From positions 186,001 to 250,000 of the forward strand of contig NZ_JAHXRW010000004.1 of the NCBI RefSeq assembly GCF_019429625.1: a stretch of DNA of 64,000 bases. The letters are read 5' to 3'. Below, in pieces: positions 40,977 through 60,557 of this stretch (positions within the stretch are counted from its first letter, which is position 1; each line of letters starts with the position of its first letter). Below the pieces are notes generated by a model. That model did not search any database. It worked only from the letters and a program-made list of their open reading frames with translations, and was not told where the DNA came from. The DNA comes from Celeribacter sp. PS-C1 (lineage in GTDB: Bacteria; Pseudomonadota; Alphaproteobacteria; Rhodobacterales; Rhodobacteraceae). Position numbers and translations under genes: made by a program.

Positions 40977-40977
40977 A

Positions 40978-42063: not shown

Positions 42064-43643
42064 TTTTCTGCCCCGCTCATCAGCGCCCCAATTTTATGGC
42101 GTGCGCCGTCTTCATTCTCGACAATGCCGGCGACCCGGCCCTGATCCATCACCGCGATGCGGTGACTGAGCTCCAGAAGTTCATCGAGTTCGGTGGAAAT
42201 CAGGATCACGGCAGCCCCGCTCTGCGCCGCCTCGCGAATGCGCATCTTGGTCGCCGCAATATTTGCGAGATCAAGCCCATAGGTCGGCTTCTCGAAAATC
42301 ACCACACGCGCGGCGCCCGCAAGCTCACGCGCCAGAAGCACCTTCTGGATATTGCCGCCCGAAAGTTTTCCAACGGGCGTGTCGATCGATGGCGTGCGAA
42401 TGTCGAATTCCTTGACCTTCTGGCGCGCATTTTCGCGGATCGCCTCGGGTTGTTCGATCCCGCCACGCCAATAAGGCGTCTGGCCGATTTCTTTCAGCAA
42501 GAGATTGATCGACATCGGAAATGTCCCGACCGTCCCTTCGCCGAGCCGATCGTCGGTGACGTATCTGAGGCCCTTTTCCCGGCGTTGCCCGATGGTCATT
42601 TTGTCAATGTAAGCGCCATCCAGAATGATCCGACCATCAGAGACCGGCGCCTGTCCGGCAATCGTCGAGGCCAGTTGCTTTTGACCGTTGCCATCAATTC
42701 CGGCGATGCCGAGAATCTCCCCCGGCCAGACCTTGAACTCGATATTCTCAAGCGGCACACGGCCCGATTTGGCATAGAGCGCCAACAATTCGAGCGTCGG
42801 CTTCGCGGATCGGTCCACCGTGGTCGCGTCGGGACGATCCCGTTCGCCAGTCGAGGCCTCGCGGGTGCCGAACATGAGCTGCACCACCGCATTCGTCGCC
42901 TCTTGCGGGTCAAGCGATTTGAGCTCCTCGGGGGAAAGCCCGCCAACCTTCTTGCCCAGACGCAGAACCGAAACCCGGTCCCCGTAGGCCACGGCCTCGT
43001 TGAGCTTGTGGGTGATAAAGACCACCGCCATCCCTTCGGCCGCCAGACGACGCATCAACTCGCCAAGACGTGCCGCATCATCGGGCGTGAGCATCGCTGT
43101 CGCCTCGTCGAGGATCAGAAAGCGCGCGCCGCGCATCAAGGCACGGGTGATTTCCGCTTGCTGGCGTTCGCCAAGCGAGAGATCCCCGGTCAGCGCCATG
43201 GGATCAAGGCGCACACCAATCCGCTCGGCGGCTGCGTTCATCACCTGGGCGGTGCCTTCGCGATCCGGCTTCTGCCACCACTTCCGTCCGAGCGTCGCAT
43301 TTTCAACCAACGTCAGACTCGGCACCAACATTGAGTGCTGGAACACCGTGGAAATCCCGATCTCAAGCGCCTCCCCCGGCGAACCGATCGGCTTCTCAAC
43401 CCCGTCGATCAAAATACGTCCGTCATCGGGCTGTTGCAGCCCGGAGAGCATGGAGACCAAGGTCGATTTTCCGGCGCCATTTTCCCCGAGAAGCACATGC
43501 ACCTCGCCAGCGCGGAACTCCATGTCGATGCTGTCATTGGCAATGATGCCCGGATAGCGCTTGGTCACCCCTTCAAAGGTGACAATCGGCGGGGCCTCCG
43601 TGCCGGAGGGAATATCGGTTGCGCGGGGATGTGCGTCTAACAT
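42060..43643 (-). CDS. ABC transporter duplicated ATPase, BMP/nucleoside type (NupO/YufO-like)
   Basis: A 527-aa chain with two ATPase domains. The N-terminal half has a full Walker A (LLGENGAGKST, 51-61), signature LSLGERQQ and Walker B near ILDEA. The C-terminal half has the degenerate Walker A GIDGNGQKQ and signature LSGGNIQK, the asymmetry usual for the sugar/nucleoside importer ATPases. It lies between the binding-protein gene (78-bp gap) and the first permease gene (4-bp overlap). Confidence 0.92.
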   Translation of the reverse strand: MLDAHPRATDIPSGTEAPPIVTFEGVTKRYPGIIANDSIDMEFRAGEVHVLLGENGAGKSTLVSMLSGLQQPDDGRILIDGVEKPIGSPGEALEIGISTVFQHSMLVPSLTLVENATLGRKWWQKPDREGTAQVMNAAAERIGVRLDPMALTGDLSLGERQQAEITRALMRGARFLILDEATAMLTPDDAARLGELMRRLAAEGMAVVFITHKLNEAVAYGDRVSVLRLGKKVGGLSPEELKSLDPQEATNAVVQLMFGTREASTGERDRPDATTVDRSAKPTLELLALYAKSGRVPLENIEFKVWPGEILGIAGIDGNGQKQLASTIAGQAPVSDGRIILDGAYIDKMTIGQRREKGLRYVTDDRLGEGTVGTFPMSINLLLKEIGQTPYWRGGIEQPEAIRENARQKVKEFDIRTPSIDTPVGKLSGGNIQKVLLARELAGAARVVIFEKPTYGLDLANIAATKMRIREAAQSGAAVILISTELDELLELSHRIAVMDQGRVAGIVENEDGARHKIGALMSGAEK

Positions 43644-43721
43644 GTTAGTCTCCAGTGTTGAGGACGGGCCCCGAAGGCAGGGCCCGCCCGTTTTCTTTCG
43701 CGGAGGAACGTCCGCCTGGCG

Positions 43722-44759
43722 TTACTCGCCTGTCACCAAGGCATGTACAGACTCCGCGTCGAAATGCGGCTCAACCACGACCTCGCCGGACACGATCTGA
43801 TCTTTCACGGCCATGACTTCGCCCCAGATGTCTTCGGGGATATGCGGGGATTTCAACAGAGCAACGGAACCGTCCTCAAGGTTGATGCCATAGTTGCGCG
43901 TGCCGAATTTGTCAGCGCGTATATCTTCGATCATCGCCTCGTAGACCGGGGTCAGATTCCAGAGCACGGAGGACAGGAGATACCCCTTGTCGATCGGAGT
44001 CTTGTCACCGATGACGTCGATGAACATGACCTTGCCACCGTCAGCAGCCGGGGTCGTCTCAACCGCCTGAAGCATCCCGAAGGACGAGCCGTTCCCCTGG
44101 CCAAAGATGATGTCGGCACCAGCAGCGATCAGCGATTCGGTGACGCGTTTGCCACCAGCCGCATCGGAATAGGCAGCCGGCCCGATCACCGCATAGCGGA
44201 TGACCAGTTCAGGATTCGTCGCCTTCACACCCTCGGCAAAGGCTGCGGACTGCGAGTTCCACGACGGCGGCTCACCGGAGGTTACGATGCCGACTGTGCC
44301 CGAACGGGTCATCTTCGCGGCCAGAACACCGGCCAGATAAGCCCCCTCGTGACCGGAAGCGGTGTAATCCACGACGGACCCTTCGGTCAGCGCACTCGGA
44401 CTGTCGACGATTGCCACTTTGACACCCGCCTCTGCCCCAATCTCGGGAGCGGCCGTGTTGTAGCCGCTGGCATGGGCGACGATCAGCCCCGGCTCTTCTT
44501 CGGCCAGTTCACGCAGGGTCGGACGCACATCGCCGTAGCCAAGGTTTTCGGCCACGATCACTTCGACACCAAGCGCCTCACCGGCCGCCACAGCGCCGTC
44601 GATCCCTTGTTGGTTCCAGCCGAAATCTGTGCCCGTCTCTGGCGTCAGAATGGCCAGAGAGGTGATCTCCTCGGCCAGCACAGCCGTGCTCATCCCGGTC
44701 GTAAAGGCAAGCGCGGTCATCAACCGCAATGCGCCCTTCGTGGTCTTTGTCATCATCAT
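43722..44759 (-). CDS. BMP family (Med/PnrA-like) substrate-binding protein
   Basis: The periplasmic binding protein of the importer, 345 aa. The N-terminus begins with three Met codons; GGAG lies 8 bases before the first at 44759, which I use. The Sec signal ends near VLAEE. The mature chain has the BMP pattern: an opening TDFGWNQQGIDGA segment, GHEGAYLAGVLAA and FGQGNGSSFG. Members bind nucleosides, purines and similar ligands. It is divergent from a small secreted protein. Proximity to the pyridine/B6 genes makes a B6-type vitamer a possible ligand. Confidence 0.9.
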   Translation of the reverse strand: MMMTKTTKGALRLMTALAFTTGMSTAVLAEEITSLAILTPETGTDFGWNQQGIDGAVAAGEALGVEVIVAENLGYGDVRPTLRELAEEEPGLIVAHASGYNTAAPEIGAEAGVKVAIVDSPSALTEGSVVDYTASGHEGAYLAGVLAAKMTRSGTVGIVTSGEPPSWNSQSAAFAEGVKATNPELVIRYAVIGPAAYSDAAGGKRVTESLIAAGADIIFGQGNGSSFGMLQAVETTPAADGGKVMFIDVIGDKTPIDKGYLLSSVLWNLTPVYEAMIEDIRADKFGTRNYGINLEDGSVALLKSPHIPEDIWGEVMAVKDQIVSGEVVVEPHFDAESVHALVTGE

Positions 44760-44864
44760 ATTTCGCTCCATCTGTTGACAAATTTTGTTTTTAGCTTTCC
44801 GTTTCCGTCGCACTCGCCCTGCTTTCGCCCGGCGAATTTCTTTCCCCCAATCGAGGATTCCATC

Positions 44865-45335
44865 GTGTCCCATCTCATCCGCTCGCTTGTGCCCGCCACC
44901 CTCTGCCTGTCGCTCATTGGCGCTTCCGCCATGGCACAAGGGCACGGTCCGACACCCAAGCGCGGCACCGAGGGGCTCGCTCCTGTGGTCTTTGATGTCG
45001 CCAACACCGGTGAGGTGGAATTGTCCTGCACGGCGAAATTGGCGCATTGGTATTCTTTGGAACTCGGTCGCGCCGCACATGGCGTTTCGCTGTCCGCCAC
45101 CTTCTGGTCGAACCCCGAGACGGGTGAATTTTTTCTGCTCAATCCGATCGGCGACCAGATGCCGGTCGAACGCCTCTGGTGCGGCGTGAGCGGCCGAAGC
45201 TGGGAGACGCGTTTCGAAATGCCCTTGGCCCGGACCGTCGGCCAATCTGAGACAGATCTCATCTTTGACTGCGCGGCACAGCCGAAAGGCGCCGTTCCCG
45301 AAGACGTCACCGAAACACGGTGCACCACACGCTGA
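44865..45335 (+). CDS. Small secreted protein of unknown function
   Basis: A 156-aa protein with a GTG start at 44865 preceded by GAGG 8 bases upstream. Residues 1-24 are a Sec signal (VSHLIRSLVPATLCLSLIGA, cleavage near AMA-Q). The mature part has four Cys (LSCTAKL, LWCGV, FDCAAQ, TRCTTR), probably two disulfides, and looks like a small beta-rich periplasmic domain. It is divergent from the BMP transporter operon, and a small hairpin overlaps its stop codon. I do not recognise the family. Confidence 0.7.
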   Translation: MSHLIRSLVPATLCLSLIGASAMAQGHGPTPKRGTEGLAPVVFDVANTGEVELSCTAKLAHWYSLELGRAAHGVSLSATFWSNPETGEFFLLNPIGDQMPVERLWCGVSGRSWETRFEMPLARTVGQSETDLIFDCAAQPKGAVPEDVTETRCTTR

Positions 45336-45579
45336 CGCAGGTCAGCGCCCCCATATTCCTCTCCGGGCGCCTTGCCCAACGAGGAGGATGGCAACAAGAC
45401 GACAGCATCTCCGGCCATTGGCCGGTTTTGCGCGTGTCTCGGGTCCAGCACTCTCTGGTTCACCATTGTCTTCCCTGAAAATATCGAACGCGCAGCGCGC
45501 GCCCTGATGTGCGTGTGCCTGTTGACCTGTCTGCCATCTCTCTAAGGAGCGATCAGCCGCCGGGCGATCCCGACCAAAT

Positions 45580-45847
45580 CAACCGATTTCGACTCAACCA
45601 TACCGGCAACCAAATTACCGTCAACAAATCTCAACCGTTTTATTGGTTGTTTTTAGCACACCCCTTCAACCACCAGAGCAAAAGCACAAAATTCAGACAG
45701 ATGGTGAACTTTTCCCTTGATTTAGAGTGCTTTTTCATCGTTTTGAGAAAAACCCGGCGCCAAACCTGCCGCTATTCTGAGCAATCTTCCATCGTGAATT
45801 CGAAAACTTTGTCTCAACCATTTTTTTTGGTTGCACTCTCTTGGTTG
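45580..45847. promoter_or_regulatory. Array of CAACC/GGTTG half-sites upstream of the pyridine/B6 operon
   Basis: The gene-free stretch 45336-45938 (about 600 bp) carries nine copies of the pentamer. CAACC is at 45580, 45595, 45607, 45632, 45667 and 45815, and GGTTG at 45645, 45829 and 45843. Two form inverted pairs: 45632-45649 (8-bp spacer) and 45815-45833 (9-bp spacer, CAACCA..TGGTTG around a T-run). The same motif precedes the GntR gene of the locus, so these are probable operators of that regulator. The last lies about 90 bp before the hydroxylase start. No convincing ORF lies here. Confidence 0.6.
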
Positions 45848-45938
45848 ACCGATCTAGCGTGACTCATCACTCGGCGATCCGACATGCACCGCGTCTCGGA
45901 TAACCACGCCACCCGCAACAGGGACTTCAGGAGAAGCT

Positions 45939-47432
45939 ATGACAGTGCAAGAAACATCCAAGACCGCGAGCAAACCCGCGCACCGGCTCAAAACCGGCGC
46001 CGAGTTCAAAGCCTCGCTCGACGACGGTCGCAACATCTGGATCGGCAAACGCAAACTCGACAAAGTGACAGATGAACCGGCGCTCGGCGCAGGTGTCGAA
46101 CTGCTGGCTGAGATGTTCGATGACCAGTTCAAGCCGGAATTCGAAGACGCGACCACATATCTCGATCCCAAAACCGGGGAAGTCGTGAGCCGCGCCTGGC
46201 AATTGCCGACCACGGTCGAAGAACTCGCCGATCGCCGTAAGATGATCGAATACACCAGCCTCAAGACCGCTGGCACCTTTGGGCGTCCGCCGGATCTTTC
46301 CCCAGCCATCGTCGCAGGCCTCATGGCCTATCAGGATGTTTTCAAAGAGAAAAAATCCATGATTGACGGATGTAATCCGGACTTCGCCGAGAACATCGAA
46401 GCCTATATGGACTTTGGCCGGAGCACCAACCTCACCGCCTCGGAGAGCCTCGCAGGCCCGCAAACCGACCGCTCAAACCCGAAGGCGGCCGAGATGGCCT
46501 TCCTCCGCGTGACCAAGGCACAGGCCGACGGCATCTATGTCTCGGGCGCGAAAACCGTGGGCTCGATCGCGGCGCAAGCCAATGACATCTTCTTCACCAA
46601 CCTCGGCGGTCTGACCACCACCCCGCCGGAGGCCTGTGTCTGGGGCGCCGTCCCGATCAACGCCGATGGCATCACCATGATCTCCCGCGAGATGGTGTCG
46701 CAACCGGGCGCCAACAAGTTTGATCACCCTGTGTCTTCCATGGGCGAAGAAGCCGACCAATTTATCGTCTTCGACAATGTTTTCGTCCCGAAAGAGCGCA
46801 TCTTCAACCTCGGCGACCCGGATGGCATGTCCTGGTATGGCCGTGCCACGGTCTTTGCCCACTGGCATGTGCTTACCCGTATGGCCGTGAAATCCGAGCT
46901 GTTCGTGGGCGCGGGCCAAATGGTCCTAGACGTCCTTGGCACCGGCAAAATTCCGGCCGTTCAGCAGATGCTCGGTGAGTTGATCCAGTATTCCCAGACG
47001 CTGCGCGCCTTTGTCGTCGCCGCTGAAGCCAAGGCAACACAGCTGCCGTCCGGTGTCGTAACCCCCGATGTCTCCATGCTCACCGCGGGTCGCCTCTACT
47101 CGATCGAACATTATCCGCGGATCATCCACATCCTGCAAGAAATGTGCGGTCAGGGTCTGGTCATGCGCTTCGGCAAAGACGCGTTTGAGAACCCCGAAAT
47201 TGGTCATTACCTCAATGACTTGCTTCCGGGTCACGGCGTCTCCGCCATGCAGAAAGAACTGTTGATGAACTTCATCTGGGACATGACTAGCGGCTCTTTG
47301 GCCGGTCGCGTCGCGCTCTTTGAGAACGTCAACTCCTCGCCTGCCCCGCGCCTGCGCGCCCGCCTCTTTGACGAGGTGAGCCGCGAGAGCTTTGTCGATC
47401 AGGTGAAAACCATCGCAGGTATGGACTGGTAA
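45939..47432 (+). CDS. HpaB-like flavin-dependent hydroxylase (4-hydroxyphenylacetate 3-hydroxylase family)
   Basis: The oxygenase component of a two-component flavin monooxygenase, 497 aa, in the acyl-CoA-dehydrogenase-like fold of HpaB. Family landmarks include a N-terminal helical domain, GPQTDRSNPK (about 172-181), the central beta domain with VSGAKTVGSIAAQANDIFF and the C-terminal helical bundle. It would use reduced FAD and O2 to hydroxylate a phenol-like ring, here probably a 3-hydroxypyridine. The partner reductase is encoded at 51728. Ribosome site GGAGAAG. It heads an operon of seven genes ending with the NicX-like dioxygenase. Confidence 0.88.
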   Translation: MTVQETSKTASKPAHRLKTGAEFKASLDDGRNIWIGKRKLDKVTDEPALGAGVELLAEMFDDQFKPEFEDATTYLDPKTGEVVSRAWQLPTTVEELADRRKMIEYTSLKTAGTFGRPPDLSPAIVAGLMAYQDVFKEKKSMIDGCNPDFAENIEAYMDFGRSTNLTASESLAGPQTDRSNPKAAEMAFLRVTKAQADGIYVSGAKTVGSIAAQANDIFFTNLGGLTTTPPEACVWGAVPINADGITMISREMVSQPGANKFDHPVSSMGEEADQFIVFDNVFVPKERIFNLGDPDGMSWYGRATVFAHWHVLTRMAVKSELFVGAGQMVLDVLGTGKIPAVQQMLGELIQYSQTLRAFVVAAEAKATQLPSGVVTPDVSMLTAGRLYSIEHYPRIIHILQEMCGQGLVMRFGKDAFENPEIGHYLNDLLPGHGVSAMQKELLMNFIWDMTSGSLAGRVALFENVNSSPAPRLRARLFDEVSRESFVDQVKTIAGMDW

Positions 47433-47494
47433 TCGGTCCTCACGGGCGCGCCTCGCCCCCTCTTGGCGCGCCCCTCAACAGCAAGAGCAGACTT

Positions 47495-47896
47495 ATGACC
47501 GACTTCCCTCTCGTAGACGCCTTTTACGCTGCGTATAATCGCCATGATGCGGATGCCGCCACCGCCCTTTATGCACTCGAAGGGCGTCACGACGAGATCG
47601 CCATGGGCAAGTCGCGCAGCGGGCACGACGCCCTGCGTGACGGGTTGAACGGGTTCTTCAGAATGCTCCCCGATGTATCATGGACCCCGCGTGAGAGCGT
47701 GCGCTCTGCTGAACACATCGCAATCTTCTACTCAATGACCGGCACGTTTACGCCACGCCCGACAGAGGCCCAGCCCGCTCCCGCCCCCAAAGCGGTGGAG
47801 CTGGACGGAATGCATCTGTTCAAATTTGACGGCGATGAGATCGTGCTGACGCAAGACTACTGGGACAAAGACCAGTTCATGGCCCAGATCGGATAA
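47495..47896 (+). CDS. SnoaL/NTF2-like protein
   Basis: A 133-aa alpha+beta barrel of the NTF2/SnoaL superfamily, opening with the usual helix (VDAFYAAYNRHDADAATALYA) and followed by beta strands with YSMTGTFTPR and LFKFDGDEIVLTQDYWD. Such proteins can be small cyclases, isomerases or accessory subunits. It lies between the hydroxylase and the first amidase, in the same operon, so it may act on the unstable ring-hydroxylation or ring-opening product. No reaction can be named. Confidence 0.8.
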   Translation: MTDFPLVDAFYAAYNRHDADAATALYALEGRHDEIAMGKSRSGHDALRDGLNGFFRMLPDVSWTPRESVRSAEHIAIFYSMTGTFTPRPTEAQPAPAPKAVELDGMHLFKFDGDEIVLTQDYWDKDQFMAQIG

Positions 47897-47899
47897 GAC

Positions 47900-49339
47900 A
47901 TGCTAGACAATTACGACAGGCTCGACGCCACCGCGATCGCCGAACTGGTGAAGAGCGGTGAGGTCAGCGCGAAAGAGGTTTTCGAGAGCGCCATGGCGCG
48001 CATTGAAAAACTCGAACCGCATCTCAACACCATCGTGCATCCGCATTTCGATCTGGCAGAAGCCGATATTGATGCAGGCCTTCCCGACGGCCCATTCAAG
48101 GGCGTGCCCTTTCTCGTCAAAAACACCGGCATTGCCGTGCGCGGCATGGAAATGTCGACGGGTTGTCGTTTGTTCAAGGGGCATGTGGATCAGACGGACT
48201 GCACGCTTGTGGCGCGCTACCGCGCCGCCGGCATCACCATTCTGGGCAAATCCAACACGCCCGAATTCGCTCTGAGCTTTGCGACCGAGCCACGCGAATT
48301 CGGCGTCACGCGAAACCCCTGGAACCTCGCACATGGACCGGGCGGCTCCTCCGGCGGCTCAGCGGCAGCCGTTGCCGCCGGTCTCGTGCCCTTTGCCAAC
48401 AGTTCCGATGGGGCGGGATCGACCCGCCTCCCCGCCGCGCATACGGGCTTGTTCGGCTTCAAACCGAGCCGGATGCGCAATCCTTTGGGGCCGGTTGCGG
48501 TCGAAGGGATCGCAGGCATGTCGACGCCACATGCGCTCACCAAGTCGGTACGCGACAGCGCCGCATTACTGGATATTTCCGGCGGCGCGGATATTGGTGA
48601 CCCCTACGCCCAGCCCGCGCAGACCGAGAGCTACCTCGCTTCGGTTGCACGCGATCCGAAACCTCTCAAGATCGGGCTGACACTTGCCTCGCCGCTCGGC
48701 ACGCCGGTCGATCCCGAGATTCTCGCGCGAACGGAAGAGGCGGCCAAACTCATGGAGAGCCTCGGCCACCATGTCGAGATCGTTGAAAGCGCCGGCTATG
48801 ATGCGCAAGCGCTCAAGACCGCATGGCAAGTCATCCCCGGCGTCAATGTCGCCAGTGCCGTTCTGGCGCGCGGCAAGGCGCTTGGAATCAGCGACCCGAT
48901 TGCCGAACTTGAACCCGCCAATGAGGAATGGATCCGCAAAGCGCTTACGCTGATGGGCATGGACTATCTTGCCTCGGTCAACCAGCTTCACGCCACTGCG
49001 CGCGGACTTGGACAGTTCTTTGAGCGGTTCGACATTCTGATGTCTCCGACAAGCGCCGAATTGCCGCCGAAACTCGGCATCATGTCGAGCCAGTCACAGG
49101 GACTCGATGCGTTCTATGACCAATTCTGGGCGCACAGCCCCTTCACCTGCGCCTTCAACGCCTCCGGCTTCCCGGCCATGAGCCTGCCATTCGGACTGTC
49201 GACATCCGGCCTGCCAATCGGTGTGCATTTCGGTGCGGCACTGGGCGGTGAGAACCTGCTTTTCTCGCTCGCAGGCCAATTTGAACGCGCAGCGCCCTGG
49301 GCTGACATGCGCCCCGACCTTTCGGAGTTTCTCTCATGA
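47900..49339 (+). CDS. Amidase (amidase signature family), first of a tandem pair
   Basis: A 479-aa AS-family amidohydrolase. The Ser-cisSer-Lys triad can be placed: Lys74 (FLVKNTG), the cis-Ser in GGSSGGS (148-154) and nucleophile Ser174 in DGAGSTRLPA. The usual GGSIR is GAGSTR here. It would hydrolyse a linear or cyclic amide. It starts 3 bp after the SnoaL-like gene and overlaps the second amidase gene by 4 bp. In this locus it probably acts on the N-acyl amide formed by ring cleavage. It may instead be the second step. Confidence 0.88.
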   Translation: MLDNYDRLDATAIAELVKSGEVSAKEVFESAMARIEKLEPHLNTIVHPHFDLAEADIDAGLPDGPFKGVPFLVKNTGIAVRGMEMSTGCRLFKGHVDQTDCTLVARYRAAGITILGKSNTPEFALSFATEPREFGVTRNPWNLAHGPGGSSGGSAAAVAAGLVPFANSSDGAGSTRLPAAHTGLFGFKPSRMRNPLGPVAVEGIAGMSTPHALTKSVRDSAALLDISGGADIGDPYAQPAQTESYLASVARDPKPLKIGLTLASPLGTPVDPEILARTEEAAKLMESLGHHVEIVESAGYDAQALKTAWQVIPGVNVASAVLARGKALGISDPIAELEPANEEWIRKALTLMGMDYLASVNQLHATARGLGQFFERFDILMSPTSAELPPKLGIMSSQSQGLDAFYDQFWAHSPFTCAFNASGFPAMSLPFGLSTSGLPIGVHFGAALGGENLLFSLAGQFERAAPWADMRPDLSEFLS

Positions 49340-50628
49340 GTGATCTGATCAAACTCGACGCCACCGATCTCATCGCAAAGGTGTCCTCGGGCACCGTGAA
49401 ACACCGTGACGTGGCCGAAGCCTATCTGGAGCGGATTGCCGAGAAAGACGGTGCAATCGGAGCCTATATCCATACCGACCCCGACCTCGTCCGCAAAAGC
49501 GCGGATGCGCGCGACAAGGCCGAAGCGGGTCCGCTCGCGGGGCTTCCAGTGGGCGTGAAGGACGTGATCGACACGGTGGACATGCCGACGGGATATGGCT
49601 CTGAAGCCTATGCCGGGCGGCAGCCCTATTGGGATGCGCCTTGTGTGGCGCAGTCCAAAGCGGCTGGCGCATTGATCATGGGCAAGACCGTCTCGACGGA
49701 ATTTGCCATGGCCAGTTCAGGCAAGACCCGCAACCCGTGGAACCTCGCGCACACGCCGGGTGGCTCCTCGTCGGGCTCCTGTGCCGCCGTGGCTGCGGGC
49801 TTGGCGTTGATGGCTTTTGGCACCCAAACGGCCGGTTCTATCATCCGGCCCGCCTCCTTCTGCGGCGTGGTCGGCTACAAACCCACGTTTGGACTGCTCG
49901 AACCGGCCGAGGTCAAGGTTCTGGCCCATTCTCTTGATACGCTCGGGTTGGTGACGCGCAATGTGCGCGATGCGGCGCTTGCGGCCTCCGTGCTTGCCGG
50001 GAGACCGTCTCTCAAATTGCCCGAAGATCTCCCTGCGGCGCCGAAAATCGGCCTGTTCCGCACCCCGCCCTTTGACAGCGCAGATCCCGCGACCGTAGCA
50101 GCGCTTGATCTTGCGGTCCAACGGATTGAGGCCGCCGGCGGCTCCGTGGTCGAGATCGACGTGCCTGAGAGTTTCATCACGACCCACGCTCTGCATCTCG
50201 CCATCATGGGATGGGAGGTCACGCGCGCCCTGTCCTTTGAGCGCACCGTGCTCTGGGATCAGCTCACCCCCGTAACGCGCGATTTCCTGACCGAAAAAGC
50301 GCTGGTCGATGCCCCCGCCTATGACGCCGCCTGCGCCGCGCTGCCCAAGGTCGCAGCCGAACTGGCGGAGGCCATGACGGACGTCGATGTGCTCTTGGCC
50401 CCCTCGGCGCCGGGCACCGCCCCAGAAGGATTTGCAAGCACCGGCGCACCGATGTTCAACACGCCTTGGACGCTGCTTCACATGCCCGCTCTGAGCGTTC
50501 CGGCGATTGTCCACGACGGTCTTCCCGTTGGCGTTCAAGTGATCGGGCGGGTCGGCGAAGACGCTAAAACATTGGCCATGGCAGCCTTTGTCGAAACCTG
50601 CCTCGATGCACCGCGAGAACTTCAATGA
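49336..50628 (+). CDS. Amidase (amidase signature family), second of a tandem pair
   Basis: A second AS-family amidase, 430 aa and clearly diverged from the first. The triad is Lys75 (VGVKDV), cis-Ser in GGSSSGS (142-148) and Ser168 in TAGSIIRPA. It overlaps its neighbours on both sides by 4 bp. In nicotinate catabolism two different amide bonds are cut after ring opening (N-formylmaleamate, then maleamate) by unrelated enzymes. Here two AS amidases may share those roles. Confidence 0.88.
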   Translation: MSDLIKLDATDLIAKVSSGTVKHRDVAEAYLERIAEKDGAIGAYIHTDPDLVRKSADARDKAEAGPLAGLPVGVKDVIDTVDMPTGYGSEAYAGRQPYWDAPCVAQSKAAGALIMGKTVSTEFAMASSGKTRNPWNLAHTPGGSSSGSCAAVAAGLALMAFGTQTAGSIIRPASFCGVVGYKPTFGLLEPAEVKVLAHSLDTLGLVTRNVRDAALAASVLAGRPSLKLPEDLPAAPKIGLFRTPPFDSADPATVAALDLAVQRIEAAGGSVVEIDVPESFITTHALHLAIMGWEVTRALSFERTVLWDQLTPVTRDFLTEKALVDAPAYDAACAALPKVAAELAEAMTDVDVLLAPSAPGTAPEGFASTGAPMFNTPWTLLHMPALSVPAIVHDGLPVGVQVIGRVGEDAKTLAMAAFVETCLDAPRELQ

Positions 50629-51731
50629 AGGGACAAAACCCACTTGAACGCCTGAGCAGCCAAGACGTGCGCCAGAGCCTGCAATGGGCGGCGCTTCTGG
50701 CGGCGGCCATCGGGCTTGCCACCCTGCTCGGGCTCATTCACTTCCCTGCGGCGCCGCTTTTGGGCGCGATGATTGCGGGCATCGCGTTTGGCGGCAGCGG
50801 CAGCCATCTGCGCGTGCCCCGCCCCGCCTATGTGTTGGCTCAGGGCGCTGCGGGTGTCTTCATCGCCACCTCCATGTCCCCGGCCATTTTGGTGGATGTC
50901 GCTCAGGACTGGCCACTTTTGCTGGCGATGACCTGCGCCACGTTGTTTGTTGCCTTTAGCATCGGCTGGGTTCTGAACCGAACGACCGGAATTTCCGAGG
51001 ATGTCGCGGTCTATGGCAGCCTGCCCGGCATGTCTGGTGCCATGGTGATCATCGCCAACGAACGCGGTGCAGACGCTCGGATCGTGGCCCTCATGCAATA
51101 TGTGCGCCTCGCTGCCGTGATCCTGTCCGTCGCCCTGTTCGCCGCGCTCCTGCCAGACAGCCCCGAAGCCAGCCTGCCGCCGCGCGACATCTCACCGCTC
51201 TCTCCGATCCTCGCCCCGCTGCTTGCGGCGATCTCTCTGATTGCCGTCAAGATCAAACGCCTTCCGGCGGCGGGCATGCTCATTCCGCTGATCCTTTGCG
51301 CCGTGATCGAAGCGACAGGCCTTTTGCACCTCCATGTGCCAAACCTCATGATCCTCGCCACTTTCGGCATCATCGGCCTCGAAGTCGGGCTGAAATTCAC
51401 GCGCGAAGTGCTGGGGCACGTGATCCGCCTGATCCCGGCCGTCTTGGTTTCGACCGTGATGCTCATCCTGATCAGCGCCGGGCTGGGACTGCTGCTCTAT
51501 GCGTTCACAGACATCGACATCAAGACCGCCCTTCTGGCCTCTGCCCCCGGCAGCATCGAAACCGTTGCTCTCGTGGCGATCGCCACCAAGGCCAATGTCG
51601 CCGCCGTTATCGCCTTTCAAACGGTGCGGATGTTCACCGTCGTATTGTTTGGCCCATTTCTCGTAGACCTGCTGATGCGTCTGCCGATCTGGGCCTTTCC
51701 CGGAAAAACCGCTTCACGGAGAGAAACATGA
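50625..51731 (+). CDS. AbrB-family (PF05145, ammonia monooxygenase-annotated) membrane protein
   Basis: A polytopic inner-membrane protein, 368 aa with about ten to eleven hydrophobic segments arranged as two similar halves. LIHFPAAPLLGAMIAGI and GSLPGMSGAMVIIANERGAD in the first half are mirrored by LHLHVPNLMILATFGIIGLEVG and SAPGSIETVALVAI in the second. This is the AbrB duplication family, often mislabelled ammonia monooxygenase. It is probably a transporter. It overlaps the second amidase gene by 4 bp and the flavin reductase gene by 4 bp, so uptake of the substrate or export of a product of this pathway is likely. Confidence 0.85.
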   Translation: MKGQNPLERLSSQDVRQSLQWAALLAAAIGLATLLGLIHFPAAPLLGAMIAGIAFGGSGSHLRVPRPAYVLAQGAAGVFIATSMSPAILVDVAQDWPLLLAMTCATLFVAFSIGWVLNRTTGISEDVAVYGSLPGMSGAMVIIANERGADARIVALMQYVRLAAVILSVALFAALLPDSPEASLPPRDISPLSPILAPLLAAISLIAVKIKRLPAAGMLIPLILCAVIEATGLLHLHVPNLMILATFGIIGLEVGLKFTREVLGHVIRLIPAVLVSTVMLILISAGLGLLLYAFTDIDIKTALLASAPGSIETVALVAIATKANVAAVIAFQTVRMFTVVLFGPFLVDLLMRLPIWAFPGKTASRRET

Positions 51732-52246
51732 TCATGCCAATGGTTTATCCTCAAGCCGACGCCGTCGAGGGCCTCAAGGCCGCCATGCGCGCCTACCCAG
51801 CAGGCGTTACCGTCATCACCGCCGGAAAGGGTGAGGCGCGCCGCGGTCTCACGGCCACGGCATTTACCTCGGTCACGATGGAGCCCCCGACCGTGCTCGT
51901 CTGCGTCAACCGCAATGGAGAAGCGCATCGGGCGATCACCGAGAATGGGCATTTCTGCGTGAATATCCTATGCCAAGAGGCCCTCGACGTCGCAGAAAGC
52001 TTTGCCGGAATGACCGGCAAGACCGGCGCCGACCAATTCGAAGGGTTCGAATGGGTTGAGACCAACGTCGGCGCCCCCGCTTATGCGTTTGCTCAGGCTT
52101 CGGTTGCCTGTGAACTCAAAGAGGCGATTGAAACCGGATCACACAGCATCTTCATCGGGGAGGTGCGTGAAGCCGCACTCAACCCGGACCGCCAACCGCT
52201 ATTGCACTACAACCGCGGCTTCCACGCCGTCGGCGCCGTCAGATAA
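51728..52246 (+). CDS. Flavin reductase (HpaC/DIM6-NTAB family)
   Basis: A 172-aa FMN-binding split-barrel reductase. The pattern AMRAYPAGVTVITAG (17-31), GLTATAFTSVTMEPPTVLVCVNR (38-60) and HFCVNIL is characteristic of HpaC-type NAD(P)H:flavin oxidoreductases. It would supply reduced flavin to the HpaB-like hydroxylase at the head of the operon. The start at 51728 overlaps the AbrB-family stop (ATGA), with GGAGAG upstream. An in-frame ATG two codons later is possible. Confidence 0.88.
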   Translation: MIMPMVYPQADAVEGLKAAMRAYPAGVTVITAGKGEARRGLTATAFTSVTMEPPTVLVCVNRNGEAHRAITENGHFCVNILCQEALDVAESFAGMTGKTGADQFEGFEWVETNVGAPAYAFAQASVACELKEAIETGSHSIFIGEVREAALNPDRQPLLHYNRGFHAVGAVR

Positions 52247-52259
52247 AACAGGAGCCCCC

Positions 52260-53303
52260 ATGTCCATCAGCAACGCAGATTTTGTCCTCGCGTGGAAAAA
52301 CGTGTTGGAACAATGCCAACTCAAGCCCGGCGAACAAGTGGCCATCCTGACCTCAGACGACAGCAATATGCAGATCGTCGAATGCGCGCGCACCGCCGTG
52401 GGTCTTTTGGGCGGCATCATCACCATGATCAACCTGCCGATGATCAATGGCGACAAGGCCCTGTCGCGTGACAAATCCGGCTATGTCGGCCAAACCACCC
52501 AGCTTGGCCTTGGGGTCAACACTGCGGCACTTGCGGCCCTGAAGGCCTCCGATCTGGTGATCGACACGCTTCAGCTGCTCTTTTCCCACGAACAGGAAGA
52601 GATCCTGAAAACCGGCACCCGCATGTTGCTGGCGGTCGAGCCGCCGGAGACCATGCTGCGGATGATCCCCTCGCCCGAAGCGAAGAACAAGGTCATCGCG
52701 GCAAACAAATACATGGAACCGGCAAAAGAGATGCACGTCACCTCGAAGGCCGGCACCGATTTCCGCTGCAAACTCGGGCAATATCCGGTGCTGTTGCAAT
52801 ATGGTCTGGCGGACGAGCCGGGTCGCTGGGATCACTGGCCGAGCTGCATGATCGCCCGATGGCCCGACGAAGGCTCTGCCGAAGGCACCATCGTCATTGA
52901 CGAAGGCGACATCCTTTTGCCGTTCAAGCGCTATGCGGCAGACAAAATCTATCTCACCATCGAGAAAGGCTTTGTCACCAAGATCGAAGGCGGCTGGACT
53001 GCGGAATACATGAAGAGTTTCATGGACAGCTTCAACGATCCGGATGCCTTCGCCATGGCCCATGTCGGTTGGGGGCTTGAGAATCGTGCAAGCTGGACGA
53101 CGCTTGGGCTCTATGACCGCGAAGCGGCCCTGTCGATGGATGCGCGCTGTTTCGCCGGGAACTTCCTGTTCTCGACCGGTCCGAACACCGAGGCCGGTGG
53201 CAGCCGAGACACGCCCTGTCACATGGATATCCCGCTGCGCGGCTGTTCGCTTTCTCTCGATGGCGTGCCAATGACCAAGGATGGCGTTGTCGTCCACGAC
53301 TGA
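52260..53303 (+). CDS. NicX-like 2,5-dihydroxypyridine 5,6-dioxygenase family protein
   Basis: A 347-aa member of the Fe(II) ring-cleavage dioxygenases related by fold to M29 aminopeptidases. As I remember NicX of Pseudomonas putida (about 350 aa), the two are similar along the whole chain, including EQEEILKTGTR (111-121), LAVEPPE and ADEPGRWDHWPS (184-195). The residues reported for NicX metal binding (His265, His318, Asp320) match His268, His321 and Asp323 here (AHVGWGL and CHMDIPL) with a constant offset of 3. It should cleave a dihydroxypyridine to an N-acyl maleamate-type product. Start at 52260 with GGAG upstream. Last gene before a terminator. Confidence 0.87.
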   Translation: MSISNADFVLAWKNVLEQCQLKPGEQVAILTSDDSNMQIVECARTAVGLLGGIITMINLPMINGDKALSRDKSGYVGQTTQLGLGVNTAALAALKASDLVIDTLQLLFSHEQEEILKTGTRMLLAVEPPETMLRMIPSPEAKNKVIAANKYMEPAKEMHVTSKAGTDFRCKLGQYPVLLQYGLADEPGRWDHWPSCMIARWPDEGSAEGTIVIDEGDILLPFKRYAADKIYLTIEKGFVTKIEGGWTAEYMKSFMDSFNDPDAFAMAHVGWGLENRASWTTLGLYDREAALSMDARCFAGNFLFSTGPNTEAGGSRDTPCHMDIPLRGCSLSLDGVPMTKDGVVVHD

Positions 53304-53325
53304 GATTTTCGACGACAGTACATAC

Positions 53326-53355
53326 AAAAAAGGCGGCCCTTTGAGCCGCCTTTTT
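53326..53355. terminator. Bidirectional rho-independent terminator
   Basis: A stem of AAAAAGGCGGC and its complement with a 7-base loop, flanked by an A-run on the left and a T-run on the right. It lies 22 bp after the NicX-like stop and 17 bp before the end of the convergent aminotransferase gene, so it can end both transcripts. Confidence 0.87.
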
Positions 53356-53372
53356 CATTTCTTTTCTGTTAT

Positions 53373-54566
53373 TTAACCTCGGATGACGGCTTCTGCCGCC
53401 GCGACCGCCGCTCCAATATCAAGCGGCTTGCCGAGCAGTTCCCCCATCGCGCCACCAAGTGCAGTCAAAGCAAGAACCGTGTAGAGCGGAAATGCCGTCG
53501 GCCCCATATGTCCAACGCGCACCAGCTTGTTGAATGTTTCCGCCCGCCCCGAAGAGATCACCACGCCATATCGTGCCTTCATCAGGTTTCGCAGGACGGT
53601 TTCGTCGATGCCCTCGGGCAATTTGATCGTGGTGCAGGTCGGAGAGGCGATGTCTTCTCTTGCGACCCAAAGCTCGAGCCCCATGGCTTTCACGCCCGCG
53701 CGCATGGCTTTCGCCGTCTTGGCATGACGCGCCCACACATTTTCCGGCCCCTCTTCCAAGTAGCGATCAATTCCTGCTTCGAGGCCGTAAATTTCTGAGA
53801 CGGAGGGGGTAAAGGGGAAGCCCTCGGATGCTTTCCATGCGTCTTTCCAATCCAGAATGGAGAGAATTGAGGCCCGAGGGGCGACAGGATTGGCCTCCAT
53901 TTTGGCCCATGCCCGCTCGGACACTGTCAGAATTGAGAGAGCTGGCGGGCAACCGAGACATTTATTGGGGCCCGTGACCAAAAGATCGATATGACAGGCC
54001 TCAACATCCACCTCGACACCGGCCCAGGCCGAAACGCTGTCGACCACATAGAGCGCCCCATGTTTGCGGACCACCTCGCCGATGTCTTTGATCGGGTTAA
54101 TCGTCCCTGAGGGCGTATCGTGGTGACAGACCGCAACCAAATTGATTTCCGGGTGGTTGGCTAGGAATTCATCAACCACAACCGGATCAACCACATCGTT
54201 ATAGACGACGCGGATCTCGTGGAATTGACCCGCGCGAGGCTTGAGCCATTCCCCATATCCGGCCCCGTAGACACCCGACGCCAGATTGAGCACGGCATCA
54301 TCGGGCGCGACCAGAGAATAGGCCGCCGCTTCGAGGCCCAGCACAGGTTCCCCCTGCAGAACAATTGGGATGTCAGAGGTCCCGAGTGCCGTGGAAAGTT
54401 TGCGCATGACCTTTTCGTAATAGGCCATAAATGACGGATCATAGTCATAAAATACTGGCTTTCCGAGCGCGGAGAGAACTTCTGGATAGCAGTTGACCGG
54501 TCCGGTCGTAAGGGTGAAGAGCGCGGGGGCGTCCGCCGCCGCCATCATATCTTTCATCGTGGTCAT
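53373..54566 (-). CDS. ppat: Pyridoxamine-pyruvate aminotransferase
   Basis: A fold-type I aminotransferase, 397 aa from the ATG at 54566, which follows AGGAAACAGGA. It closely resembles, from memory, the Mesorhizobium loti enzyme (TTGPVNCYPEVL, GEPVLGLEAA, ASGVYG, CHHDTPSGTINPI). Key residues of that enzyme (Lys197, Arg336, Arg345) match Lys202, Arg341 and Arg350 with a constant offset of 5, and Glu68 matches Glu73. The enzyme uses pyridoxamine as substrate with pyruvate, giving pyridoxal and L-alanine, and does not bind PLP as cofactor. It is divergent from the GntR/GMC genes and belongs to vitamin B6 degradation. A serine-glyoxylate aminotransferase label would be the generic alternative. 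Confidence 0.88.
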   Translation of the reverse strand: MTTMKDMMAAADAPALFTLTTGPVNCYPEVLSALGKPVFYDYDPSFMAYYEKVMRKLSTALGTSDIPIVLQGEPVLGLEAAAYSLVAPDDAVLNLASGVYGAGYGEWLKPRAGQFHEIRVVYNDVVDPVVVDEFLANHPEINLVAVCHHDTPSGTINPIKDIGEVVRKHGALYVVDSVSAWAGVEVDVEACHIDLLVTGPNKCLGCPPALSILTVSERAWAKMEANPVAPRASILSILDWKDAWKASEGFPFTPSVSEIYGLEAGIDRYLEEGPENVWARHAKTAKAMRAGVKAMGLELWVAREDIASPTCTTIKLPEGIDETVLRNLMKARYGVVISSGRAETFNKLVRVGHMGPTAFPLYTVLALTALGGAMGELLGKPLDIGAAVAAAEAVIRG

Positions 54567-54629
54567 TCCTGTTTCCTGACGCCTATGGCTGTGCCGGATC
54601 GCACGGAGTCGGCGTGAACCTCCTTCATG

Positions 54630-54688
54630 CAACCACAGCTCCGCGACCACACGCAACCAAAGTTTCACCATTTTCCAGTTTTTGGTTG
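54630..54688. promoter_or_regulatory. CAACC/GGTTG operator sites in the divergent aminotransferase-GntR promoter
   Basis: The 190-bp gap between the divergent aminotransferase and GntR genes carries CAACC at 54630 and 54654 and GGTTG at 54684. The last two form a wider palindrome, GCAACCAAA (54653-54661) and TTTGGTTGC (54681-54689). The same half-sites recur nine times upstream of the hydroxylase operon. This places both transcription units under one regulator, most simply the adjacent GntR protein. Confidence 0.6.
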
Positions 54689-54756
54689 CATGATGCCGCT
54701 ATTTCACTCAAATTCAGGGAAACACGTTTAAAGGTTTATTGGAGGGTAAGGGCAGA

Positions 54757-55464
54757 ATGAACGACAAGGCGACATCAGATCAGAGTGTAAAGCGCACAGA
54801 CCGGGAGGAAGATCTGGTCGAACACCTTCGTGGTCTTCTCAAGGCCTCGGAAGACCTGCCCCCCGAGCGCATCCTTGCAGAGACGCTCAAAGTGTCCCGT
54901 CACAGCCTGCGCAAGGCGCTCAAGGTGCTGCGCGACAATGGTGAATTAACGCCCGCGAAAAGCGGTCGCCGCGCCCATTCCGAGACCAGCAGCCCAGCCC
55001 CCAGCAGTGCGAAACTGGTGCAATCCACCAATCCGCTGGAAGTCATGGAAATGCGCCTGATGATCGAACCCGCACTGGCGCGATTGGCTGCGCTGCGCGC
55101 CTCTCCCGACGAAATCGCTCATATTTTGCAAACCGCGCATTCCCCCGCCGACCTGAGCCCGGCTCAGGCGGACCAGGACTTCCACCGCGCGGTTGCGGCA
55201 GGGTCACGCAACAGCCTCGCGTCCGAACTTCATATCCTTTTGCACAGGGTCCAAAACGATGCCCGCCTGCGATTTACGGATGCGGACAGCGATGAACACA
55301 CGACGGTTGAGCGCGTGAAAGCGCGCGACCTCGAACATCAAAGAATTGCGGCGGCGATTGCCTCCCGCGACCCGCTGACGGCGGAACGTGCCATGTTCGA
55401 TCACCTCGAGCGCACACAGAGAAAACTTATGGGATTGGGAATGAGGCCGGGCGATGCCGCATAA
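54757..55464 (+). CDS. GntR-family transcriptional regulator (FadR/FCD type) of the pyridine/B6 locus
   Basis: A 235-aa regulator. The winged helix is at about 15-75 (EDLVEHLRGLLKASEDLP, then LAETLKVSRHSLRKALKVLRDNGE), and the FCD effector domain at about 90-225 (LEVMEMRLMIEPALARLAALRA, DQDFHRAVAAGSRN). It lacks the aminotransferase domain of PdxR/MocR-type B6 regulators. The ATG at 54757 follows GGAGGGTAAGGG. It overlaps the GMC oxidoreductase gene by 11 bp. The CAACC/GGTTG sites on both sides of the locus are its likely targets. Confidence 0.9.
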   Translation: MNDKATSDQSVKRTDREEDLVEHLRGLLKASEDLPPERILAETLKVSRHSLRKALKVLRDNGELTPAKSGRRAHSETSSPAPSSAKLVQSTNPLEVMEMRLMIEPALARLAALRASPDEIAHILQTAHSPADLSPAQADQDFHRAVAAGSRNSLASELHILLHRVQNDARLRFTDADSDEHTTVERVKARDLEHQRIAAAIASRDPLTAERAMFDHLERTQRKLMGLGMRPGDAA

Positions 55465-57034
55465 CACTGACGAACTGACGAGCGACCTTCTTATTTTGGG
55501 AGGTGGCTCGGCAGGCTGCATTCTGGCCAACCGCCTCAGCGCCGATCCGAAAGTCAAAGTGACCCTGCTTGAAGCGGGCGGATGGGCGAAAGATCCCGAC
55601 ATCGCGAAACCGGATATGTGGCCTTTTATTCAAGGCCGCGCGTTCGACTGGGATTTCGAAACCACACCACAAGCTGGCACAGCCGACCGGGTCCATCGTT
55701 GGGCGCGCGGCCGAGTCCTCGGCGGATCGAGCAACCTCCATGCTATGTTCCATGTGCGCGGCCACCGCGAGGATTTCGCCCGCTGGGCTGAGGTGTCGGG
55801 GGACGACCGCTGGAGCTACGACGGTCTTTTGCCGGCATTCAAGGCCACCGAGAACTGGAACATTCCCGAAGATGCTCTTCATGCCAGCGACGGTCCGATG
55901 CCGATTATGCTACCGGACGAAACGCAGAGCCATCCTCTGGTGAAGGACTATATCAAGGGATGGGTCGCGCTTGGCATGCCGCGCCTGCGCGATCACTGCG
56001 GCGAGCACCTGATCGGCACCGCCCCCAACGCGCTGATGATCCGCGACGGCAAACGCGTCACGACAGCAGATGCATGGCTGACACCGGAGGTCCTCGCGCG
56101 TCCGAATCTGACGATCATCGAGAATGCCCCCGTGCAGCGATTGATCCTCGACGGCACCAAGGTTATCGCCGTCGAAGTCGCCTCAACCAATGGCCCGATC
56201 CGTTACGAGGCCGATGAGATCATCCTGAGCCTCGGAGCGATCGGAAGCCCGACCACCTTGATGCGCTCCGGCATTGGTGATCCCGCGCGCCTTGCCGCAG
56301 CGGGCGTGGACTGTGTGATCGAACGGCCGGAGATCGGCAAGAACCTGCACGACCATTTGTTGGCCGCAGGCAATATCTACCGTGCGAAACGCGAGATTGT
56401 GCCCTCGAAACTGCAAATCTCGGAGTCCTTGAGCTATCAGGCCGAAGACCCCACCCGGACCGAAGGCCGCCCTGACATCGTAGTCGGCTGCGTCGCGGCC
56501 CCCAGTGCTTCGGAAATGTTCGACAACGCACCCGCTCCCGGCGAAGGTTTCACGCTGCTCTTTGGCGTCACCAATCCGACCAGCCGGGGCGAGTTGACGA
56601 TCACCGGACCGAACCTCTCCGATCCTGTAAAGATCGACCCGAATTACCTCGCCACGGAACACGACCGACATATGTTCCGCGTCGCGCTCAAACGGGCACG
56701 CAGCATCGGCCAGAGCGACGCGCTTGCGCCGTGGATCGCGGAGGAGATTCAGCCCAGCCCCGAGGATTTGGTCGACGATGATGCCATGGATGCCTTCATC
56801 GCGAAGGCCGCGATCACACATCACCACCCGGTCGCGACCTGCCGGATGGGCGCGGATGACGATGCCATCGTCGATGCGGATCTGAAAATGCGCGGGCTCG
56901 ACAATCTCTGGATCGTTGACTCATCCATCATTCCGGAAATCACCGCAGGCCCCATCCATGCCGCCGTGATGGCCATCGCCGAGAGCTTTGCCGCGTCACG
57001 AATGGGGAACGCGCCGCGTGCAGCATTGGGTTAA
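55454..57034 (+). CDS. GMC flavoprotein oxidoreductase, pyridoxine 4-oxidase-like
   Basis: A 526-aa GMC oxidoreductase. The FAD motif LILGGGSAGCILANRLS starts at residue 13, and the second signature GRVLGGSSNLHAM follows near 90. In most family members the second catalytic residue near the C-terminus is His or Asn. Here it is Pro500 (TAGPIHAA), with His456 and His458 in THHHPVATCRMG. As I remember, Mesorhizobium loti pyridoxine 4-oxidase has His460, His462 and Pro504, a constant offset of 4. It would oxidise pyridoxine to pyridoxal with O2, next to the aminotransferase that makes pyridoxal from pyridoxamine. A choline dehydrogenase label would be the generic reading. Confidence 0.85.
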   Translation: MPHNTDELTSDLLILGGGSAGCILANRLSADPKVKVTLLEAGGWAKDPDIAKPDMWPFIQGRAFDWDFETTPQAGTADRVHRWARGRVLGGSSNLHAMFHVRGHREDFARWAEVSGDDRWSYDGLLPAFKATENWNIPEDALHASDGPMPIMLPDETQSHPLVKDYIKGWVALGMPRLRDHCGEHLIGTAPNALMIRDGKRVTTADAWLTPEVLARPNLTIIENAPVQRLILDGTKVIAVEVASTNGPIRYEADEIILSLGAIGSPTTLMRSGIGDPARLAAAGVDCVIERPEIGKNLHDHLLAAGNIYRAKREIVPSKLQISESLSYQAEDPTRTEGRPDIVVGCVAAPSASEMFDNAPAPGEGFTLLFGVTNPTSRGELTITGPNLSDPVKIDPNYLATEHDRHMFRVALKRARSIGQSDALAPWIAEEIQPSPEDLVDDDAMDAFIAKAAITHHHPVATCRMGADDDAIVDADLKMRGLDNLWIVDSSIIPEITAGPIHAAVMAIAESFAASRMGNAPRAALG

Positions 57035-60477: not shown

Positions 60478-60489
60478 AGGGTCCTCCTT

Positions 60490-60546
60490 GTACTCGATTT
60501 GAGTACATCCGAGGCATGACTTATTCTCCATCTGAGTTTATGTCAA
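60490..60546 (-). promoter_or_regulatory. nadA promoter with candidate NAD-regulator operator
   Basis: On the minus strand a perfect -35 TTGACA (60541-60546) is followed after 17 bp by a moderate -10, TAAGTC (60518-60523). Just downstream lies a perfect palindrome, GTACTC-N5-GAGTAC (60490-60506), ending at the AAGGAGG ribosome site of nadA. The position suits a repressor operator. The regulator gene upstream is the natural candidate. Confidence 0.65.
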
Positions 60547-60557
60547 GACCATGACAG

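Follow-up and report, generated by a model that had tools for sequence, protein, structure and literature searches.

A probable vitamin B6 catabolic locus with a proposed third route of ring opening in Celeribacter sp. PS-C1

Introduction

Bacterial degradation of vitamin B6 is commonly described as two pathways. Here we ask whether a gene cluster in Celeribacter sp. PS-C1 encodes a further one. The cluster lies in a stretch of 64,000 nucleotides (the window; contig NZ_JAHXRW010000004.1, positions 186,001 to 250,000) of a genome of 3.87 Mb that is 99.96% complete. It combines enzymes resembling the entry steps of B6 breakdown with an HpaB/HpaC-like hydroxylase pair, a NicX-like dioxygenase and two amidases. 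A preliminary description had proposed that this set hydroxylates the pyridine ring at C6, opens it and releases acetate and ammonia. We compared the locus with its relatives and with the textbook route of B6 degradation (pathway I; described in the available portion of PMC6253932). We consider it quite likely that this is a B6 catabolic locus with a third ring-opening route, for which substrates, step order and products are predicted.

Results

All ten genes previously named between positions 45939 and 57034 are present as open reading frames at their places (Table 1). Pfam or NCBIfam models agree with the family of nine of them; the tenth, the NicX-like protein, matched no model in either collection. 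Two genes had been described as B6-specific entry enzymes, and sequence comparison supports both assignments. The first encodes pyridoxamine-pyruvate transaminase (PPAT), which scores 626.7 bits against the NCBI equivalog NF046070, above its curated cut-off of 600. Among solved proteins it matches the Mesorhizobium loti enzyme (2z9u) at 520 bits and the next distinct protein at 146, and on this ground we rejected a serine- or alanine-glyoxylate aminotransferase. All seven active-site residues of the M. loti enzyme, whose numbering we take to be Glu68, Tyr95, Asp171, Lys197, Phe247, Arg336 and Arg345, are kept in the alignment with the window protein (Glu72, Tyr99, Asp175, Lys201, Phe251, Arg340 and Arg349). 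Across 48 PPAT sequences six of them are invariant and Phe251 is present in at least 90%. Glu72 presumably occupies the phosphate-binding position of pyridoxal phosphate enzymes, which fits the use of free pyridoxal. A preference for glyoxylate or serine had been named as the case that would count against a role in B6 breakdown; the retained residues of the free-pyridoxal enzyme, numbered as assumed here, speak against it. The second entry enzyme, a GMC protein, is a predicted pyridoxine 4-oxidase that would convert pyridoxine to pyridoxal. Pyridoxine 4-oxidase (4ha6, 3t37) is its closest solved relative, at 574 bits against 254 for the next, and its NCBIfam matches include no pyridoxine 4-oxidase model.

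An alignment of five hydroxylases was scanned against one genome per species (84,980 species). The best 80 of 92 relatives fell into 73 distinct loci, which together with the window and seven plasmid loci gave 81 loci for comparison (two of them, L035 and L100, come from strains of one species). In the hydroxylase tree, 50 loci form a clade, here class A, that is mostly alphaproteobacterial and includes two metagenome-assembled genomes labelled Enterobacterales. PPAT is present in 47 of the 50; the three without it (L049, L063 and L107) are on cut contigs. HpaB, NicX, PPAT and GMC proteins occur together in all 47 uncut loci, so the association is not due to chance, and conservation of the gene set, proposed earlier as a check, is borne out. 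The substrate-binding protein of an ABC importer (BMP family), its ATPase and a small secreted protein are each found in 46 of the 47, the SnoaL-like protein and both amidases in 45 each and HpaC in 42. Each importer permease was found in 29, the flank ending before the permeases in several loci. Less widespread are CMD and a hydroxyacid dehydrogenase (31 each), MBL, two SDR proteins and PrpD (21 each) and an AbrB-type protein (16).

The entry enzymes are confined to one side of the tree: neither PPAT nor GMC is found in any of the 27 uncut loci of two further classes. Class B comprises 20 loci, of which 16 were counted (L088 and L116 are cut, and L096 and L104 are outliers). All 16 encode an isochorismatase-like and an FAD-synthetase-domain protein, a related hydroxylase (about 60-66% identity) and a more distant NicX relative; class B is probably a sister pyridine pathway. 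Class C consists of 11 Bacillales loci with a hydroxylase at 47-49% identity, a NicX relative at 45-47% and an isochorismatase; most also encode a protein of the Asp/Glu racemase family. This set resembles the lower steps of nicotinate-type pathways.

The conserved locus also reaches further than the region first described. Of 20 proteins from the Rhizobium daejeonense plasmid locus L035, 13 were found in the window locus by tblastn at 42-72% identity. Four belong to the importer (40044-44759), one is the secreted protein (44865-45335) and the other eight correspond to genes among the ten named previously. The L035 regulator is of another type than the window's, and the six proteins SDR1, SDR2, MBL, CMD, hydroxyacid dehydrogenase and PrpD had no counterpart in the window. 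All 20 were found on plasmids of Rhizobium sp. ACO-34A and Ochrobactrum quorumnocens. The gene content given earlier stands, but the start at 45939 lay too far to the right: 40044-45335, with four importer genes and the secreted protein, belongs to the same conserved locus, which spans 40044-57034. Its closest relatives are in Celeribacter species (hydroxylase 97% identical to that of C. ethanolicus). The next-closest hydroxylase among 295 sampled genomes of the family is 63% identical, and within the sampled class no NicX relative in any other genome exceeds 55%; given such low identities, the locus is rare and patchy.

How might the ring be opened? The description of an HpaB/HpaC-like pair is right as to families (Pfam HpaB_N, HpaB and Flavin_Reduct), but the hydroxylase is not HpaB itself, reaching 223.3 of the 480.2 bits required by TIGR02309 and 141.9 of the 885.2 required by TIGR02310. 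We therefore rejected an ordinary 4-hydroxyphenylacetate 3-monooxygenase pathway. Among solved proteins the hydroxylase best matches monooxygenases for trichlorophenol, 4-hydroxyphenylacetate/nitrophenol and chlorophenol (201-216 bits). In one such enzyme, HadA, His290 is the base acting on the phenol, whose para position points toward the flavin (PMC8342789, in the portion available). The equivalent residue, His308, is kept in all 50 class A hydroxylases, as are Arg250, Asp273 and Arg457; Arg116 is present in 49, with one gap. In the B6 ring, C6 is para to the 3-hydroxyl and unsubstituted. Other positions have changed in class A: Thr193 of HadA is replaced by Ser, and its aromatic cage is lost, Phe206 and Phe286 being replaced by Gly and by Cys or Thr. 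Where HadA has Arg208, class A proteins have Ile or Leu, 19 of 20 class B proteins have Tyr and class C proteins keep Arg. As pocket positions differ among the three classes, their hydroxylases probably use different substrates.

The assignment of a NicX-like dioxygenase was upheld by a match of 393 bits to 2,5-dihydroxypyridine (DHP) dioxygenase of Pseudomonas putida (7cn3). In that enzyme the iron ligands are His265, Ser302, His318 and Asp320, and the substrate contacts include His105, Glu177 and His189 (as given in the accessible part of PMC7910607). All four ligands are kept in 49 of 49 class A dioxygenases, the window's among them. Of the three contacts His189 is kept, and in all 49 proteins His105 is replaced by Phe and Glu177 by Gln. 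Because of these two changes we call the protein NicX-like rather than a DHP dioxygenase; judged from the alignment, they tell only that the site is not of the DHP type. A plain DHP or nicotinate pathway was rejected on the same two contacts, and no nicotinate entry enzyme is among the locus genes.

Both tandem amidases, as claimed, match the Pfam Amidase family (47900-49339 and 49336-50628). The solved protein nearest to amidase A is 6-aminohexanoate cyclic dimer hydrolase (295 bits), followed by aryl acylamidase (177 bits); for amidase B it is malonamidase E2, at 283 bits against 165 for the next. In Neorhizobium lilium (L052/L092) and N. alkalisoli (L053/L090), loci of classes A and B share a contig, some 25 kb from each other. 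The two amidases are missing from the class A loci L052 and L053 and present in the class B loci next to them.

We compared the locus with loci in which PPAT accompanies other enzymes. Among 385 sampled alphaproteobacterial genomes, PPAT exceeds its cut-off in eight, the window's included, and 4-pyridoxolactonase in five, all of them PPAT carriers. Ten comparison stretches (L144-L153) were taken from the seven other PPAT-positive genomes and from G328, whose PPAT is below the cut-off. They are not all textbook loci: L147 and L148 have no pathway I marker enzyme nearby, and L153 is the one below the PPAT cut-off. In L144 three neighbours of PPAT exceed the cut-offs for pyridoxal 4-dehydrogenase, 4-pyridoxolactonase and FHMPC dehydrogenase, and relatives of these are found in four (at least 74% identity), five (at least 61%) and four (at least 63%) of the seven genomes, respectively. 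Importer genes adjoin PPAT or the lactonase in all seven, although the G580 contig ends before the BMP gene, and a GMC relative stands beside PPAT in four; G328 lacks the importer genes. No relative of HpaB, HpaC or NicX was found in the ten stretches at E <= 1e-8. Trees split class A from the comparison stretches with values of 100 for GMC (starred), 97 for the comparison stretches in the PPAT tree (starred) and 92-93 for BMP (not starred); in the PPAT tree, separating class A needs a second change owing to L104. Since textbook loci combine this importer and PPAT with a different set of downstream enzymes, one uptake-and-entry module appears, from these comparisons, to be joined to two different ring-opening modules. 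Perhaps another arrangement is seen in L147 and L148, where PPAT and the BMP importer stand beside a CoA-ligase (oxalate-CoA ligase is nearest for its L144 relative) and a PanE-like protein, with neither pathway I markers nor HpaB/NicX nearby.

The importer shared by these loci is of the BMP/PnrA type, with a PF02608 binding protein (106 bits against a gathering score of 24.1), an ATPase and two permeases. BMP relatives adjoin PPAT or the lactonase in textbook B6 loci, and the paralogues elsewhere in the window's genome are 25 and 28% identical. We regard it as a candidate importer of B6 vitamers. The secreted protein encoded beside it matches no Pfam model; as a query against 72,556 plasmids it found matches at E <= 1e-5 only in three class A plasmids.

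Might the locus instead degrade another substituted 3-hydroxypyridine, a natural product or pollutant, with PPAT and GMC recruited to a look-alike amine and alcohol? Hydroxylase/dioxygenase pairs exist without PPAT and GMC in classes B and C, so the ring-opening module alone is not tied to B6. Yet all 48 aligned PPATs (47 from class A and that of L104) match NF046070 at E <= 1e-180, the importer and PPAT, often with the oxidase, accompany pathway I enzymes elsewhere, and the class A hydroxylase pocket differs from those of the other classes. We hold this explanation to be improbable. B6 as the substrate is well supported by sequence comparison, through the PPAT cut-off, the nearest relative of GMC, the importer common to textbook loci and conservation in 47 of 47 loci.

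A hybrid with pathway I is another possibility: enzymes encoded elsewhere would make a later intermediate, such as 3-hydroxy-2-methylpyridine-5-carboxylate, and HpaB/NicX would replace only the MHPCO ring-opener. Pathway I enzymes had been described as missing from the window. Over the whole genome, the best scores are 184.4 bits for pyridoxal 4-dehydrogenase (NF047923, cut-off 325), 23.4 for 4-pyridoxolactonase (NF047925, cut-off 325) and 172.5 for FHMPC dehydrogenase (NF042925, cut-off 500), so that none of the three has a match over cut-off, the first two in line with that description; MHPCO and AAMS were not searched for. In the 50 class A loci no dehydrogenase relative exceeds 38% identity, no lactonase relative exceeds 29% and FHMPC dehydrogenase has no match. 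What favours a hybrid is one of three subtypes of class A. Downstream genes are limited to the AbrB-type protein in A1, to which the window belongs; A3 has CMD, an alpha/beta hydrolase, an enoyl-CoA-hydratase-family protein and a dehydrogenase. A2 has SDR1, SDR2, MBL, CMD, a hydroxyacid dehydrogenase and PrpD, and thus, beside hpaB, the folds of pyridoxal 4-dehydrogenase and 4-pyridoxolactonase. However, with 129 and 51 bits where 325 is required of each, A2 SDR2 and MBL are not orthologues of these enzymes; they may catalyse the same steps by another line of descent or act on a ring-opened lactone. The window's genome, searched for A2 PrpD and hydroxyacid dehydrogenase, has only paralogues (28% and 31%). 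Unrelated enzymes could perform the same steps, and we give the hybrid a still smaller chance than a different 3-hydroxypyridine. After an inverted repeat, CAACC-N6-10-GGTTG, had been spotted in the window, its copies were counted in 49 class A loci (L107 was left out). Of 39 copies, 30 are within 500 bases upstream of hpaB, against an expectation of 0.9 from length. The repeat precedes hpaB in 19 of 27 A1 and A3 loci and in none of the 22 A2 loci, whose GntR protein is of a different type. In the window, single CAACC/GGTTG-like boxes are also found between PPAT and GntR, and the GntR protein may control both parts of the locus. That the cluster is two unrelated neighbours, B6 uptake and interconversion (importer, PPAT and GMC) beside a separate pyridine pathway (HpaB, NicX and amidases), is very unlikely: PPAT and GntR-GMC are on transcription units other than the hpaB operon and vary in placement relative to hpaB, but the linkage holds in all 47 uncut loci although gene order has been rearranged, the PPAT loci other than L104 have hydroxylases of a single clade, and similar boxes are found both upstream of hpaB and between PPAT and GntR.

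Between the convergent nicX and PPAT genes (53326-53356) lies a GC-rich inverted repeat flanked by runs of A and T, a likely two-way terminator. Beyond the GMC gene, on the opposite strand (57099-61442), are apparent nadC, nadB and nadA genes and a NUDIX/NrtR-like gene, named from reading the sequence and with no model search. A link to these nad-like genes was rejected, as they are outside the conserved set.

Table 1 Features of the conserved locus in the window
Feature	Position	Strand	Evidence
ABC importer permease 2	40044..40976	-	67% identity to L035 locus protein
ABC importer permease 1	40978..42063	-	67% identity to L035 protein
ABC importer ATPase	42060..43643	-	60% identity to L035 protein
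BMP/PnrA-type substrate-binding protein, candidate B6 vitamer importer	43722..44759	-	PF02608, 106 bits (gathering score 24.1); 72% identity to L035 protein
Small secreted protein, four invariant Cys, GTG start likely	44865..45335	+	In 46/47 uncut class A loci; no Pfam match
Operator-like inverted repeat CAACC-N8-GGTTG	45632..45649	none	
Operator-like inverted repeat CAACC-N9-GGTTG	45815..45833	none	
HpaB-like two-component flavin monooxygenase, predicted C6 hydroxylase of a 3-hydroxypyridine	45939..47432	+	Pfam HpaB_N and HpaB; catalytic base His308
SnoaL/NTF2-like protein	47495..47896	+	Pfam SnoaL_2; in 45/47 uncut class A loci
Amidase A, predicted N-acyl amidase (acetate release)	47900..49339	+	Pfam Amidase
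Amidase B, predicted primary-amide amidase (ammonia release)	49336..50628	+	Pfam Amidase
AbrB-type membrane protein, possible transporter	50625..51731	+	TIGR03082 over cut-off; in 16/47 uncut class A loci
HpaC-like flavin reductase	51728..52246	+	Pfam Flavin_Reduct; in 42/47 uncut class A loci
NicX-like Fe(II) ring-cleavage dioxygenase	52260..53303	+	393 bits to 7cn3; iron ligands kept
Pyridoxamine-pyruvate transaminase (PPAT)	53373..54566	-	NF046070, 626.7 bits (cut-off 600); 520 bits to 2z9u
GntR/FCD regulator	54757..55464	+	Pfam GntR and FCD
GMC oxidase, predicted pyridoxine 4-oxidase	55454..57034	+	574 bits to 4ha6 and 3t37; next solved enzyme 254

Discussion

We think it probable, with slightly more reserve than for the general assignment above, that the locus encodes a third bacterial B6 route that shares its uptake-and-entry module with pathway I, together with the first B6 importer of the BMP family and an uncharacterised secreted accessory protein. 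In the proposed route, the BMP-type ABC importer would take up B6 vitamers, from which the GMC oxidase would form pyridoxal out of pyridoxine and PPAT out of pyridoxamine. The HpaB/HpaC-like hydroxylase would then act on pyridoxal, or on 4-pyridoxate derived from it, placing a hydroxyl on C6, para to the 3-hydroxyl. The NicX-like Fe(II) dioxygenase would cleave the ring between C2, which carries the methyl group, and C3, which carries the hydroxyl, to give an N-acetyl amide. Amidase A would free acetate and amidase B ammonia; what is left would be a small carboxylate that bears a hydroxymethyl group. The extra enzymes of subtypes A2 and A3 may process this carboxylate; in the window's strain it may join general metabolism or leave through the AbrB-type protein. 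Among the matches listed in searches of the B6-degradation and pyridine-cleavage literature (for example the best 40 of 608), confined to open-licence papers and the portions of them available, no report of this route was found.

Several observations weigh against the proposed route. The changed dioxygenase residues are no B6 signature: position 105 is also Phe in 17 of 18 class B and 11 of 11 class C proteins and in 20 of 29 sampled relatives, and position 177 is also Gln in 17 of 18 class B proteins. A base of the His290 type is associated with enzymes whose activity includes removal of a halide or nitro group (PMC8342789, available portion), whereas C6 of B6 carries hydrogen. No dedicated enzyme for the conversion of pyridoxal to 4-pyridoxate was found in the locus, and both pathway I enzymes for this step are below cut-off genome-wide. 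The two Neorhizobium loci L052 and L053 lack both amidases and HpaC within the 21 kb examined. A Haematobacter plasmid carries a PPAT relative (63%) with no other locus gene within 14 kb, bar a weak GntR match. Finally, in L104 from Komagataeibacter the hydroxylase that accompanies PPAT falls outside class A. Our confidence was slightly lowered by the loci without amidases, the plasmid with a lone PPAT relative and the shared dioxygenase residues. The L104 stretch (Komagataeibacter rhaeticus, L104:4589-17362) encodes PPAT, a purine/cytosine-type permease, an aldo/keto reductase, an MFS protein, both amidases and a class-B-like NicX and isochorismatase.

On balance, the idea of the preliminary description is supported, and the importer, the secreted protein, the repeat, the conservation counts and the link to textbook loci extend it. 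The chemistry it proposed, which we infer in the same form, agrees with the residue and homology evidence. If the reading is true, the defined gene set of a third route would allow B6 loss in soil and sea water to be traced from genomes. The importer that the two catabolic routes have in common offers a candidate, open to direct test, for how bacteria take up B6, and the loci would exemplify a modular swap in which one entry module serves two different ring-opening modules.

With pathway I, as known from M. loti and Pseudomonas MA-1, the locus shares PPAT, the same BMP-type importer and, in four of seven sampled genomes, a relative of the GMC pyridoxine oxidase; acetate and ammonia are expected end products of both, for this locus by prediction. 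It differs in having an HpaB/HpaC and NicX-like set and two amidases, with three pathway I enzymes below cut-off. NicX of P. putida KT2440 (2,5-dihydroxypyridine 5,6-dioxygenase) is about 51% identical to the locus protein over its full length, alike in the four iron ligands and His189 and unlike it at His105 and Glu177, which are Phe and Gln in all 49 class A proteins. Flavin-dependent phenol monooxygenases of the HadA/TcpA/TftD type share the catalytic His and flavin residues with the locus hydroxylase, which is about 30% identical to them and differs at Thr193 (Ser) and at cage residues Phe206 and Phe286 (Gly and Cys/Thr). Three characterised prokaryotic B6 transporters, PdxU, PdxU2/HmpT and P5PA, are named in the available portion of PMC9997740. 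The locus importer resembles them in its predicted uptake of B6 vitamers, and as a BMP/PnrA-type ABC system it belongs to another family.

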